A stretch of 50,725 bases of DNA from the NCBI GenBank assembly GCA_937139405.1, contig CAKZPV010000040.1, forward strand, positions 1 to 50,725, given 5' to 3'. Position numbers and translations under genes: made by a program. The notes beneath the pieces are model-generated. The model saw only the letters and a list, made by a program, of their open reading frames with translations. It ran no database searches and was not told the origin of the DNA. This stretch comes from an uncultured Nitrospirota bacterium (lineage in GTDB: Bacteria; Nitrospirota; Nitrospiria; Nitrospirales; UBA8639). Each line of letters begins with the position of its first letter. Within the stretch, counting starts at the first letter, position 1. Positions 1-4,977 of the stretch are shown here, piece after piece.

Positions 1-968
1 TCCTTACCTGTTCCTGTTTCCCCTTGAATTAAGCCAGGAACATCAACGGGAGCAATTTCCTGAATTTTTTGATACAGATCTTGCATCAAAGGACTTTTGC
101 CAATGAGCTTTTCAAAATGATCCTCACCAATCAATTGCCGCCTGAGAGCTTCAACCTCAGTGCGATCTTTCAGAAAAAGAATCGTTCGCCGCTGATCTCG
201 AGGATCATCATGTATCTCCACGGCAATCTCCAGCCAAGGCATCTGTTTTTTCTGCAGCGAGACTGAAACGGGAGTACGATGCATCTCTGGGAGTGTCATT
301 TGCTCTTGAATTTGAAGGCATTGCTTGTCTGTCAAGGGTAGGGGCTGATTCCACAATTTACCAACCAACTTTTGAGAATCAATGGCCAACAACTGAAATA
401 CCGCAGGACTCGCATAGGTCACAACATTGTTCTCGTCAATCATCACCGTTGCCAATTGCAAATGATCCAGAACGGCCGTCACATCATCTCGAATTTGTTC
501 GCTCTTAGCTAAATGATTCCCCAACTGAGTTTCTGCATGCTTTCGGACTTCAAGCTCCTGCCCATACACCAATTGATTGTCTCGAGCTTTCTGTAACATG
601 GGCTGTATCGTGATCATTTCAGGCTGATAACGTTGAACAATTAAGAAACATTGTCCCTTCTGTACGAGGGCAGTGGCTTCTAAATAACTCTCGTCCTCCA
701 TCAGATCTGGTTCGCACCACAAGCCAGATTGCAATTTCCCGTGATCATGGCCCTGCCAAAATTCTTCCGCCTCATCCAAAAAACACTGCAGGAAAAATGA
801 TCGCTGCACAAATTCCTGAGTATCGGTTGAGGAACAGTCTGAAGGGAGAGTCGCGGGATACCAACTCGGCAGGACAGTCATCGTGCGATAATGATTCGCC
901 GATTGAACCTGTAAAACCAACGCATCAAAAATGTTTAAAATTTCGGGGTAAGGAGTATCGACGCCCAT
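1..968 (-). CDS. PAS-domain sigma-54-dependent activator, N-terminal part (cut by window edge)
   Basis: I translated the minus strand from the ATG at 968-966; 322 codons are open to the window edge. The last visible residues are GETGTGK, the Walker A motif of NtrC-type AAA+ activators, preceded by the usual linker (LIGKSPLMQDLYQKIQEIA) of sigma-54 regulators. Before it is a PAS-like domain (around residues 160-270, VMIDENNVVTYASPAVFQLL). The first 150 residues form an unnamed domain containing a FLDEAEEFW motif; there is no receiver domain. The family remodels sigma-54 RNA polymerase by ATP hydrolysis. It is the last visible gene of a minus-strand cluster with a small GTPase and an OmpA-domain protein, 144 bases upstream, so it may regulate or be regulated with them. 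The AAA+ core and HTH lie outside the window. Confidence 0.85.
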   Translation of the reverse strand, partial: MGVDTPYPEILNIFDALVLQVQSANHYRTMTVLPSWYPATLPSDCSSTDTQEFVQRSFFLQCFLDEAEEFWQGHDHGKLQSGLWCEPDLMEDESYLEATALVQKGQCFLIVQRYQPEMITIQPMLQKARDNQLVYGQELEVRKHAETQLGNHLAKSEQIRDDVTAVLDHLQLATVMIDENNVVTYASPAVFQLLAIDSQKLVGKLWNQPLPLTDKQCLQIQEQMTLPEMHRTPVSVSLQKKQMPWLEIAVEIHDDPRDQRRTILFLKDRTEVEALRRQLIGEDHFEKLIGKSPLMQDLYQKIQEIAPVDVPGLIQGETGTGK

Positions 969-1067
969 ACGATTAATCCTTTCATGCGAGCCAAGATTTC
1001 ATGGCTGCCAGACGCGTCTATTTCAATAGGTCTTGAAGGCGATGAAGCAATACTGACACTAGAGGGG

Positions 1068-1091
1068 CGTTCGCACACACTTGTGAGAACG
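1068..1091. other. Hairpin between GTPase gene and sigma-54 regulator
   Basis: Arms CGTTC and GAACG, then CACA and TGTG, enclose a 4-base loop with one internal mismatch. There is no T-run on either side, so it is not a standard terminator. It could be an mRNA-stabilising or processing structure within the minus-strand cluster. Confidence 0.3.
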
Positions 1092-1112
1092 AAGTGAGGC
1101 TCAAGAGACCCG

Positions 1113-1625
1113 TTAGGCCTTCAGCAACTGTTTGGCCAATTCATTAAACGCCGATTCGACACCTTCTCCAGTCTTGGCGCTGGACTGAAGAACCAAGCAG
1201 GCATTCGACGCCAGATCTTCATACATTTTTGGATCTACCTGCCAAGATTCGCGAAGATCGTGTTTATTGATCACCAGCACATACGGAACAGCCCCCATCG
1301 ACTGTACCGCCAATGTATGTAATTGACGAGCAATGTCTAACGTCTCTTTCCTCGTGCCATCTACAACCAGCAGATATCCTGCTGAACCATGCAAATATGA
1401 CGCCCGAACTTTTTGAAAATCATCCTCACCATATACGTCCCACAAAACTAGGAGCATCTCGGTGTCATCCACACATTGAGTTTTTTGGTCGATTTTCACT
1501 CCTATGGTCGTATGGTATTTTTCAGAAAATTGCCCTGAGACAAAGCGTTTGACAAGGCTCGTTTTTCCGACTGCAAATCCACCAAGCATGCAGATCTTTT
1601 TTTGGATTACCGCCTTACTACTCAT
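1113..1625 (-). CDS. Small Ras/Rab-like GTPase
   Basis: This 170-residue protein is a single G domain. G1 is at residues 15-22 (GGFAVGKT), the G2 threonine is about residue 40 (TTIGVKI), G3 is DVYG at 63-66, G4 is NKHD at 120-123 and G5 is SAK at 149-151. The overall pattern is closer to Rab/Ras than to the Era or translation-factor GTPases. The residue after DxxG, normally the catalytic Gln of Ras, is Glu67, so intrinsic hydrolysis may be slow. There is no C-terminal lipidation cysteine. The start codon overlaps the stop of the OmpA-domain gene (ATGA), which implies translational coupling. Bacterial Ras-like GTPases such as MglA usually act with a roadblock-type regulator, and the upstream gene carries a candidate for such a domain. 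The exact role is unknown. Confidence 0.88.
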   Translation of the reverse strand: MSSKAVIQKKICMLGGFAVGKTSLVKRFVSGQFSEKYHTTIGVKIDQKTQCVDDTEMLLVLWDVYGEDDFQKVRASYLHGSAGYLLVVDGTRKETLDIARQLHTLAVQSMGAVPYVLVINKHDLRESWQVDPKMYEDLASNACLVLQSSAKTGEGVESAFNELAKQLLKA

Positions 1626-3394
1626 TTGTGACTCTCAAGTAAATTTCCTTGAGGACGAACCACCCGGAACACCGCACGCCGACCACCAATAGGCAAACCT
1701 TCTATTTCTGCGGATCTGGTAACACCCTTGCCAATAGCCTCAACTTTTAGCGCACGGAAAGAATTAGTGGGAAGAGCCTGCACCACATTTTTCGCCCGAG
1801 CGGTACTTAATTCTAAATTAGCGTCTCGAGAACCCCTGGGATCAGTAAATCCCAGAACTTGTACTTGAGGGTTAAGGCCCAAGAGGAGGGCTTGCTTGTC
1901 AAAGGATTCAAGGATTTCAGAAACTTTACTAATTATCGTCTTTTCTCCCTTGGTAAGAGCCGATCCACCAACCAAAAAATTGACCGATAGTCTTTCAAGA
2001 CGAGCCCGTAATGTATCAAATCGTTCCAAGTCTTCTGTGCCAAACATCCCATTTGTCTCAAAACTCATAACCCCTGGCAACAATGGTCCAAGAAGATTAG
2101 CCTGTGTAATCCAGGCATGCGGGGCGTGACCACCGACACTAAGATGAGTCGCTTGCCACCGGAAGTCGGCAGAGCTCGGAGGTTGCAACACTGCGTATGC
2201 TCGTTTTTCAACAAATTCAGGGGTCAGGTCCATAAATGGCTTCAAATGAAAGACCGCTTGCTTCGAGGAATAGCCAAATTCTGAAAGGATCTGCTCGGGA
2301 TCGGTAGCCAAAGGATCCCGCAATCCATAAAAAATGGTCGGTGGTCCCTCTTCTTGGATTGAGGTCACCACTAAGCCCGGTTCCTGGCCAATCCGCTCCA
2401 ACAATTGGGCCCATTGTTTTTGGTCCGAACGGGCCTGAAAAACCCAAATCCCCAAACCAAGTATCAGCAAGCCTAATAATATCCAGAAAGCTAACGGAAA
2501 GCCTTTAGATTTTTTCTCAAATTGGGCTTGCAAGCAATCTTCTAATGGAAGGCGGGTTTCTTCAAACGCCCCCACATCTCCTTTGAATACCTGCAACAGT
2601 TCTGAAAATTGGGCATGAATCGTTTCAAGTGTTTCTTGAAAAACTTCTCGTAACTCAATCGGAGGCGCACCCCGAATGACTCCCGCCAAAATAGCCCCTG
2701 ATCCTTGCTCAATCCATACGGTTAAATCCCCAATGCGAAGAGACTCCAACCCATCGTCCTGTTTTTGCCCAAACGAATCACGGACAAAATCCTGGATGGC
2801 TGTTAGCATCCCCGAAATCACTTCTTCGCCTTGGCCACTGATCCCTTCGGCCACCACATGATTTAAGAGGAGTCCCGTTTTCTTATGAATGAGAAACACC
2901 TGTTCCACTCGAAACCGTAGGGTATGCAGCAACACGACTTCGGCAAAAGACTTTCCGGTCCTGAATGCTTCCCAACGCCATTGAAGTCCCTTCCAAGACA
3001 TACTATATTCCAACGTTTGATTGAGCGACTGGACCATGCCTCTCATCGCACGAGCAATGGCTTTTCGGATCGCTGGGCCTAAGATTGGAGCAATGGAATC
3101 ACTGATGAGTTGAGGTGATTGCTTGATTGAAAGAGAGAGCGCCTCTTGGGTGATAGGAATCATGGACGTCAACAACCGTGAGTCTTGTTGGGCACGAAGT
3201 CGAATGGCATCAGGGAGCACACGACTCACGTCATGGGGCTGAAGCGTGAAATCTTCTAATCGGCCTTTGAGTCGCTCCAGCTCCGTTTGCTCTGGTTGGA
3301 GCAACAAGCGACGAAGATAGGAGAAGCCTTTAGAATCTTCTAGAGAAATTTCGGAAGGAGAATTCGGAAGGGAGGGACGAGACGGAGGTGCCAT
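1622..3394 (-). CDS. Membrane-anchored OmpA-domain protein, candidate partner of the small GTPase
   Basis: The protein has 590 residues. The N-terminal half is soluble. Residues about 163-265 alternate strand, helix and strand (VEQVFLIHKKTGLLL, then EEVISGMLTAIQDFV, then LTVWIEQGSGAILAGVIRG), which looks like a roadblock/longin-type fold; this is my inference. One transmembrane segment lies at about 300-320, followed by a region at 325-440 that may hold a BON-like fold. An OmpA-like peptidoglycan-binding domain is at about 465-580, with the typical NLELSTARAKNVVQAL helix. There is no signal peptide, so the single segment probably anchors it in the inner membrane, N-terminus in the cytosol and OmpA domain in the periplasm. 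It overlaps the GTPase gene by four bases and follows the coiled-coil gene by 78 bases. Confidence 0.8.
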   Translation of the reverse strand: MAPPSRPSLPNSPSEISLEDSKGFSYLRRLLLQPEQTELERLKGRLEDFTLQPHDVSRVLPDAIRLRAQQDSRLLTSMIPITQEALSLSIKQSPQLISDSIAPILGPAIRKAIARAMRGMVQSLNQTLEYSMSWKGLQWRWEAFRTGKSFAEVVLLHTLRFRVEQVFLIHKKTGLLLNHVVAEGISGQGEEVISGMLTAIQDFVRDSFGQKQDDGLESLRIGDLTVWIEQGSGAILAGVIRGAPPIELREVFQETLETIHAQFSELLQVFKGDVGAFEETRLPLEDCLQAQFEKKSKGFPLAFWILLGLLILGLGIWVFQARSDQKQWAQLLERIGQEPGLVVTSIQEEGPPTIFYGLRDPLATDPEQILSEFGYSSKQAVFHLKPFMDLTPEFVEKRAYAVLQPPSSADFRWQATHLSVGGHAPHAWITQANLLGPLLPGVMSFETNGMFGTEDLERFDTLRARLERLSVNFLVGGSALTKGEKTIISKVSEILESFDKQALLLGLNPQVQVLGFTDPRGSRDANLELSTARAKNVVQALPTNSFRALKVEAIGKGVTRSAEIEGLPIGGRRAVFRVVRPQGNLLESHK

Positions 3395-3472
3395 ATCGTT
3401 CCTTTATATCCTCATGTAATGTTTGATGCCAAGGAATCAAGATGCTGCTTGAGGTATTTCCAGTCGCTGCAT

Positions 3473-4099
3473 TTACGATGTCGTCTCTTCCCTAGGCTCA
3501 ACTTTTAACCGCAATGCCAAGTCCATCAGCATTTCGGCTAACGCAGCACGATCGGTTTTTTCTGTCTTCAAGAGCTGAAGACCTTCCTGAAATTGTTGTT
3601 GCAGGTTGGCCATTTGTTGAAGGTGATTCTTGGTTAAGTCTGATTTTTGTTGGATGATTTGTTGCTCCAACACACTGGATTGTTGCGAACCTTGTTGGCG
3701 TAATTGCGAGAGCTGTTCCTCGATGTTGGCACCTAGCGTTTGAATCACTTGCCCAACATCCGCCAATGAATTGGTACGCCCTTTTTCTTCTTCTTGAATA
3801 TGATTTCTTAATTGAGAAACTTCTTGCGTGAAATGAGCTTTGAGAGCTTCCAATGATCGGGTTAATTCGTTCCGGAGGTTAGTACTTTCTTGTAAGAGTC
3901 GATTTTCAAGTGCATGAACACGTTGATCAAATTCTCGACTCTGGGCTCCAAAAAGAATATCACGAACTTTTTCTAAACTACCGTCTTCTGAGGGCTCAAG
4001 TCCTTCGGTAGAAGGGGAAGGCTTTTGCTCACTCTCTGAAGGGCCTGAGACATCATAGGCAATCTTTTTTGTTCGTTTTGGGGATTCTACTGGGTTCAT
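3473..4099 (-). CDS. Coiled-coil protein of the GTPase/OmpA cluster
   Basis: The 208-residue product has a charged, Pro/Ser-rich start and then (residues about 42-190) a long Glu/Gln/Leu-rich coiled coil (VRDILFGAQSREFDQRVHAL onward), with no membrane segment or signal peptide. The start ATG at 4099 has a GGAG ribosome site nine bases upstream. It lies directly upstream of the OmpA-domain gene on the same strand, and a possible sigma-70 promoter precedes it. I do not recognise an enzymatic function. A structural or adaptor role with the membrane protein and GTPase is inference from position only. Confidence 0.7.
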   Translation of the reverse strand: MNPVESPKRTKKIAYDVSGPSESEQKPSPSTEGLEPSEDGSLEKVRDILFGAQSREFDQRVHALENRLLQESTNLRNELTRSLEALKAHFTQEVSQLRNHIQEEEKGRTNSLADVGQVIQTLGANIEEQLSQLRQQGSQQSSVLEQQIIQQKSDLTKNHLQQMANLQQQFQEGLQLLKTEKTDRAALAEMLMDLALRLKVEPREETTS

Positions 4100-4154
4100 G
4101 ATGTTTCACTCCATAAAGAGGCCTCAACCTAGAGAAGAACTCTGAAGAAAAATC

Positions 4155-4183
4155 ATCCTATCACCATCTAGAAAATGGAACAA
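4155..4183 (-). promoter_or_regulatory. Possible sigma-70 promoter for the coiled-coil/OmpA/GTPase genes
   Basis: On the minus strand TTGTTC and TAGGAT are separated by 17 bases, about 56 bases before the start codon at 4099. The match is moderate. The surrounding 4100-4384 (285 bases) holds no gene that I can support. Confidence 0.35.
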
Positions 4184-4384
4184 GACTACTTTTCCGTGTC
4201 CCCCCCTCCTCTATCATGCTAAATATGAAGATTTTCTCTCCATACCACTAATGAACTAGATAAAACGACACACTACTCTGCTACAGGAACTCAGGAACGG
4301 TGAACTGTGGAAGAAAAATAGCAGGCAAGTATCCCCAGCTGCCCAAACAGCTTGAAGAATATCAAGAATTGTCTGGTAGGCACA

Positions 4385-4594
4385 CTAATCTTTTTCAGGC
4401 TCGGAACCACCATGCTGATGGGTAACACGGTCTTCATCAAACAAATCAGCCATTTCTTGCGCCATCACGTCATTATCATGAGGAAGAGAAACAACAGACA
4501 GTTCTTTCTTTATCTTTGGAGCTTCGGCTGTGGGCTCTTTACCCTCACCTTTGCCATCTTCTGGGGTTTCAGATTTTTTATTATCATCCGTCAT
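4385..4594 (-). CDS. Small acidic hypothetical protein
   Basis: This 69-residue, strongly charged protein begins MTDDNKKSETPEDGKGEG and ends HQHGGSEPEKD; the N-terminal half is likely disordered. A GTG 15 bases further upstream is open in frame, but the bases GGAGGAG right after it form the ribosome site for the ATG at 4594, so I use the ATG. It begins 20 bases after the stop of the zinc-ribbon gene and is probably co-transcribed with it. No family is recognised. The middle segment (KKELSVVSLPHDNDVMAQEM) is the only part likely to be ordered. Confidence 0.6.
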   Translation of the reverse strand: MTDDNKKSETPEDGKGEGKEPTAEAPKIKKELSVVSLPHDNDVMAQEMADLFDEDRVTHQHGGSEPEKD

Positions 4595-4614
4595 GACAAT
4601 CTCCTCCACGATCG

Positions 4615-4977
4615 CTATTCAAACGATTCCAAAAATGACTGCTCGGGAAACTTGACCTGGCACTCGGTACACGTCACAAAATAGACCGATTCACGGACAG
4701 AAAGCACGGCTCTGAAATCTAATGATACTCCCCGATGCCGACAGGATTTACACGCAATTTCTTTAAGAATATAGGGAATATCTGGTTGGGTTTGAAGATA
4801 AAATTCCATATCGGTATAGACGGGAAAGATATAATGGCAATCGAGACAAATCGCTTTCCAATCCCCATCCCCTTCGGTCACCGTCCTGGAATCAATGCCG
4901 AAACGATTGCCTTTGCAAATCGCGCACTTCACTTCCCCTAAACGGGCTTCGACGTCTTTGATGCTTAATTGTACCAT
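4615..4977 (-). CDS. Double zinc-ribbon protein
   Basis: The 120-residue product has four CxxC pairs: C18/C21, C44/C47, C76/C79 and C103/C106. Pairs one and two, and three and four, probably form two zinc ribbons, each spanning about 27 residues, consistent with an internal duplication. It starts MVQLSIKDVEARLGEVKCAI and has no signal peptide. Zinc ribbons of this kind bind nucleic acids or proteins; no specific function can be assigned. It is the first gene of the minus-strand series that leads to the GTPase cluster, and a good promoter lies 44-72 bases upstream. Confidence 0.72.
   Translation of the reverse strand: MVQLSIKDVEARLGEVKCAICKGNRFGIDSRTVTEGDGDWKAICLDCHYIFPVYTDMEFYLQTQPDIPYILKEIACKSCRHRGVSLDFRAVLSVRESVYFVTCTECQVKFPEQSFLESFE

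Follow-up and report, generated by a model that had tools for sequence, protein, structure and literature searches.

A Group 1 Rup-type GTPase block with a sigma-54 activator as its output in the Nitrospirales

Introduction

At one end of a contig from a Nitrospirales genome, the gene for a small Ras-like GTPase overlaps that of an OmpA-domain membrane protein and lies beside that of a PAS/sigma-54 activator. The locus raises the question of which of its genes form a unit, to which class of GTPase systems that unit belongs, and how a cytosolic switch might connect the cell wall to the activator.

Wuichet and Sogaard-Andersen (2014; PMC4316618) described, from genomes, the Group 1 Rup systems, whose GTPases are very similar to the eukaryotic Rab/Ran/Ras/Rho GTPases; the Nitrospirae are among the listed carriers of Rup proteins. 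As set out in that paper, a Group 1 set combines a GTPase lacking the G3 Gln, a coiled-coil protein, another that joins an unknown domain to a TM segment and an OmpA domain, and, as output, a protein bearing an invariant Gln in its N-terminal region. Typical outputs named there are a diguanylate cyclase/phosphodiesterase and a histidine kinase, a sigma-54 activator not being one of them. The authors' guess for the whole class is that a Gln is supplied in trans to the GTPase active site; no Rup member had been tested experimentally when they wrote (PMC4316618), and in the literature we searched, including that after 2014, we found no experimental work or biochemistry on any Rup system.

Gene content and boundaries of the block

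The window, i.e. the whole stretch of DNA analysed, is the entire contig C40 (50,725 nucleotides) of a 4.46 Mb genome in 51 contigs that is 98% complete and has Nitrospirales metagenome bins as its closest named relatives. A preliminary description had listed six minus-strand ORFs in series at its left end, with an ATGA overlap between the OmpA and GTPase genes; ORF and Pfam checks found all six as listed, and the overlap at 1622-1625. The unit itself comprises four genes rather than six, at 3-4099 on the minus strand: a coiled-coil protein of 208 aa as first gene (3473-4099), the OmpA-domain membrane protein of 590 aa (1622-3394, ORF and Pfam), the Ras-like (Rup) GTPase of 170 aa (1113-1625; Pfam Ras, E 1.8e-32), and the PAS/sigma-54 activator, whose first 322 aa, with the PAS and the start of the sigma-54 AAA domain, lie within the window (3-968).

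Gene order supports the signalling cluster proposed in the preliminary description. The order coiled coil-OmpA-GTPase was found in 20/20 fetched Nitrospirales loci, with the sigma-54 gene next in 17; of the remaining three, one reaches a contig end and two carry a different output. The survey of homologue co-occurrence that had been asked for found the OmpA protein in 81 of 197 Nitrospirales genomes and the GTPase in all 81, these being related genomes from one sample and not 81 independent events. A GTPase on its own was seen in two genomes, once at a contig end (G119) and once as a distant homologue with different surroundings (G009). The same order recurs with a cyclase as output in Mesorhizobium WSM1497 and Rhizobium 007, and with a histidine kinase as output on a plasmid of Nostoc UHCC 0926; in these, too, the first gene is recognized by the coiled-coil family HMM (E about 1e-38 in rhizobia, about 1e-19 in Nostoc).

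Clean empty sites in two genomes, G021 and G078, define the four-gene block: all four genes are absent, and the site lies between MscS and DUF481-MscL. A third candidate, in G069, was rejected as a clean site; identity between its DUF481 gene and the closest one at the locus is no more than 46%, against ~80-90% for the neighbors. Exactly the place of the block in G081, between the acidic gene and DUF481, is taken by a 1491-aa gene that runs on the other strand (L108 3440-7915).

Next to the coiled-coil gene lie a small acidic gene of 74 aa (4385-4609, minus strand) and a zinc-ribbon-like gene of 120 aa (4615-4977, minus strand), both of which the preliminary description had counted as cluster members. 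These are bystanders, and were rejected as part of the block: the zinc-ribbon gene is present in 188/197 Nitrospirales genomes, whether or not these carry the GTPase, and usually lies elsewhere in the genome. It adjoins the GTPase only in the window's own family, where the acidic gene lies beside it (4385-4977), and had no Pfam family above cut-off; it can be regarded as a conserved order-wide gene.

A Rup GTPase without the G3 glutamine

Alignment shows the P-loop, NKxD and SAK motifs of the GTPase to be intact. Its G3 motif is WDVYGE, with the Asp present and the catalytic Gln absent. This is the rule in the order: G3 reads D-x-x-G-[E/D] in 19/19 main-type Nitrospirales GTPases aligned, and the Gln is absent from all 21 Nitrospirales GTPases aligned, where Glu, Asp or another residue stands instead. 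The rhizobial and Nostoc GTPases likewise lack it. The protein is a single Ras-family domain, within the 150-240 aa range set for Group 1 Rup, and is 48% identical to a relative in Mesorhizobium, the genus of the 2014 reference mll3243.

By sequence, the GTPase belongs with the Rup GTPases. The comparison with MglA-MglB drawn in the preliminary description points to the wrong family, since the G3 Asp, which MglA lacks, is present, and a search of the whole genome with Robl_LC7 gave no match at E 0.001; on these two grounds MglA was ruled out. The MglA/MglB polarity switch and the actinobacterial conservons (CvnA-D) do offer a parallel, in that a small GTPase of the Ras-like kind again has its own partner and is connected to the membrane or to a two-component system, but the window system has no recognizable MglB/Robl_LC7 protein and no conservon kinase.

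Each Group 1 feature that we looked for (GTPase type, G3, coiled coil, OmpA protein and output Gln) was found, and by its gene set, domains and motifs the block is a genuine Group 1 Rup-type system. These membership features can be read directly from the sequences, as can the gene order, the boundaries, the missing G3 Gln, Gln126 of the output (below) and the fusion of GTPase and partner domain in relatives. The arrangement was described in 2014, and Group 1 systems share the GTPase type and the coiled-coil, OmpA and output proteins with the window block but typically end in a cyclase/phosphodiesterase or kinase where the block has a sigma-54 activator (PMC4316618). New here are that sigma-54 output, the sister variant that ends in a TIR-STAND-TPR protein, the clean empty sites, and a DUF481/MscL/MscS neighborhood.

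The output protein and its PAS-like domain

At its end, contig C48 has an exact overlap with the first 77 bases of the window, from which the frame of the sigma-54 gene continues. Joined in this way, the activator is an intact protein of 596 aa with a GAFTGA motif and a Fis-type helix-turn-helix C terminus, and its relatives match Sigma54_activat (E 9e-66) and HTH_8.

Its residues 1-150 (519-968, minus strand) were modeled with a pLDDT of 74 and a PAS-like order of elements. PAS chains lead the structural matches, the best being the TraJ PAS with Z 6.9 over 100 residues at 3.7 Å rmsd, where a Z of 8 would be the settling level; Foldseek gave E 0.025 or worse. Within this domain, Gln126 (codon 591-593, minus strand) is invariant in 18/18 aligned Nitrospirales outputs, occurs in the five TIR-type copies and is aligned in Nostoc, which makes it a candidate counterpart of the invariant Gln of the 2014 paper. 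For the rhizobial cyclases, a Gln motif (LQQKA) was located by eye, not via alignment.

A sister variant with a TIR-STAND-TPR output

Five genomes carry a variant of the system (L058 7113-13751, L059 3913-10510, L100 5953-12449, L101 4198-10677 and L102 3681-10520) that keeps coiled coil-OmpA-GTPase and differs from the Group 1 systems as described (PMC4316618) in its output: the last gene encodes a TIR-STAND-TPR protein (TIR - NACHT/NB-ARC - TPR) of ~970 aa. The PAS-like domain is retained, in two forms: (i) joined to the GTPase as its C-terminal part in L058, L059 and L101, and (ii) as a free ORF after the GTPase and before the TIR-STAND-TPR gene in L100 and L102. Fused and free copies alike stop shortly past the conserved Gln. 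Being fused to the GTPase or encoded alone in these relatives marks residues 1-150 as the likely partner of the GTPase, and is the best evidence that this domain, rather than the remainder of the output protein, would work with it.

The TIR-STAND-TPR protein is possibly an NLR-like effector controlled by the GTPase, judging from its domains and position. PADLOC called no defence system and reported only weak TIR, TPR, coiled-coil or OmpA resemblances. An M48 peptidase-like gene and a second conserved gene border the variant.

The OmpA protein and the roadblock question

The OmpA protein consists of cytosolic helices and a conserved domain (residues 163-265; 2600-2908), a single TM helix (residues 301-323; 2426-2494), a periplasmic BON-like part, and an OmpA peptidoglycan-binding domain (residues 473-563; 1706-1978; Pfam OmpA, E 6.8e-9), all on the minus strand. 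The Lys-rich N-side flank of the TM helix, read from the sequence, places the N terminus inside. The OmpA domain resembles the C-terminal domain of OprF (Foldseek E 2e-6); Foldseek matches of the periplasmic part include Rv0899, while YfiB is matched by the OmpA domain alone, and Pfam detects a BON domain in the Nostoc homologue. The cytosolic part has homologues in rhizobia (HMM E 4e-86) and Nostoc (E 3e-33), so that its domain is conserved from the Nitrospirales through rhizobia to Nostoc.

Two known proteins offer comparisons. In YfiBNR, the OmpA-type lipoprotein YfiB acts on the diguanylate cyclase YfiN, and an OmpA-domain protein thus relays an envelope signal to a cytosolic output, as would be the case here; that system differs in having no GTPase, and YfiB is an outer-membrane lipoprotein. 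Rv0899/ArfA shares the periplasmic BON-like plus OmpA architecture but is without a cytosolic signalling domain or a GTPase partner.

Could the conserved cytosolic domain be a roadblock, as the preliminary description proposed, so that the OmpA protein and the GTPase form a pair of the MglA/MglB type, with the domain as a membrane-tethered GAP or scaffold touching the GTPase? We hold this to be possible, though the balance tilts against it. In its favor, the secondary structure predicted by AlphaFold (AF2) over residues 150-270 follows the order α-ββ-α-ββ(β)-α, which is compatible with a roadblock, but this comes from a model built on eight close sequences in which pLDDT is about 23-45 in the conserved cytosolic region, mostly below 45, and only the periplasmic part is informative. 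Robl_LC7 is the best-ranked Pfam family for the domain (E 0.053, profile positions 10-87 of 91, in the L054 copy), but no roadblock match rises above the curated cut-off, and a profile search of the PDB with the domain returned chance hits only. With an HMM of the phylum's roadblock proteins, 22/24 of these domains score above about 93% of 707 unrelated fragments and so rank in the top 7%, with the window domain in the top 2%, the rhizobial ones in the top 0.3% and the Nostoc one in the top 1%; this is suggestive and not stronger, because the scores are low and the domains related. Against these ranks, the TIR-type domains give no score with the same HMM, the profile-profile comparison by HHalign with roadblock proteins of the phylum fell short of significance (15.5, versus 12.7 +/- 2.4 when shuffled, with 9/60 shuffles scoring as well), the genome, as noted above, has no Robl_LC7 match, and the 2014 paper reports no Rup member coupled to MglB (PMC4316618). 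Sequence support for a roadblock is therefore weak and consistent, and the assignment suggestive. Such a pairing could be compatible with a Group 1 Rup pathway that ends in the sigma-54 activator, as the upstream half of that pathway.

The neighborhood beyond the block

After the block, outside the coordinates covered by the preliminary description, come DUF481, MscL and MscS genes: C48 carries, directly past the left end of the window and on the strand of the block, DUF481, MscL and two MscS-type genes (L103 192-5905). In 62/62 genomes with DUF481 and the GTPase gene on one contig, the two are no more than 10 kb apart, and in two families MscL and MscS genes flank the block on one or both sides. 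Together with an OmpA domain that should anchor to the wall, this neighborhood hints at an envelope or osmotic role, and in its fullest form the idea would be that the block senses stretch and the sigma-54 activator switches the DUF481, MscL and MscS genes in response to osmotic or envelope tension. We find that version doubtful, since the link is positional only: DUF481, MscL and MscS stay together in genomes lacking the block and so do not depend on it, and a search of the window, the loci and the genome gave no signal of a sigma-54 promoter, either close to the block or in front of DUF481 or MscL (7 genome hits for the promoter pattern, versus 6 for a reversed-pattern control). The neighbors also differ in rhizobia, in Nostoc and in the TIR type.

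Some DUF481 matches read through 1-5 stop codons (G087:C161:24720-25922, G085:C236:7281-8486 and G124:C1:487626-488711); they may extend upstream of the true start, the stops then not being real breaks.

That the GTPase, the OmpA protein and the regulator are chance neighbors working separately, as the zinc-ribbon gene truly is a bystander, is highly improbable, being contradicted by an order kept across Nitrospirota, Alphaproteobacteria and Cyanobacteria, by the natural fusion of the GTPase to its partner domain, and by a block that is either there or cleanly missing as a whole.

Proposed mechanism

We consider it reasonably probable that the block is a Group 1 Rup system with a sigma-54 output working from wall sensing through the GTPase to the activator. 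The OmpA protein would span the inner membrane, its OmpA domain bound to the cell wall and its conserved domain facing the cytosol; on sensing a change in the state of the envelope, it would decide whether the Rup GTPase is in its GTP or its GDP form, the coiled-coil protein being a putative scaffold. The GTPase would then dock on the PAS-like domain at the N terminus of the activator, where the invariant Gln126 may complete the GTPase's otherwise incomplete active site and so couple GTP hydrolysis to a switching of the activator's AAA+ engine. In this scheme, we infer which way the signal runs, which parts touch, what Gln126 does, and that the stimulus comes from the envelope.

A broader proposal joins the two halves: the domain of the OmpA protein would be a divergent membrane-tethered roadblock, the PAS-like domain would provide the missing Gln in trans, and the switch so formed would be coupled to sigma-54 activators, cyclases, kinases and TIR-STAND proteins. 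As a whole we regard it as less likely than not. Were it true, Rup GTPases, thought to lack roadblock partners, would share the logic of MglA.

The fusions and free copies point to one small domain, with one invariant Gln, as the partner of the GTPase, and two small proteins now suffice for a direct test of the 2014 guess of a Gln acting in trans. As the TIR-STAND variant suggests, the same switch can also be wired to an NLR-like effector.
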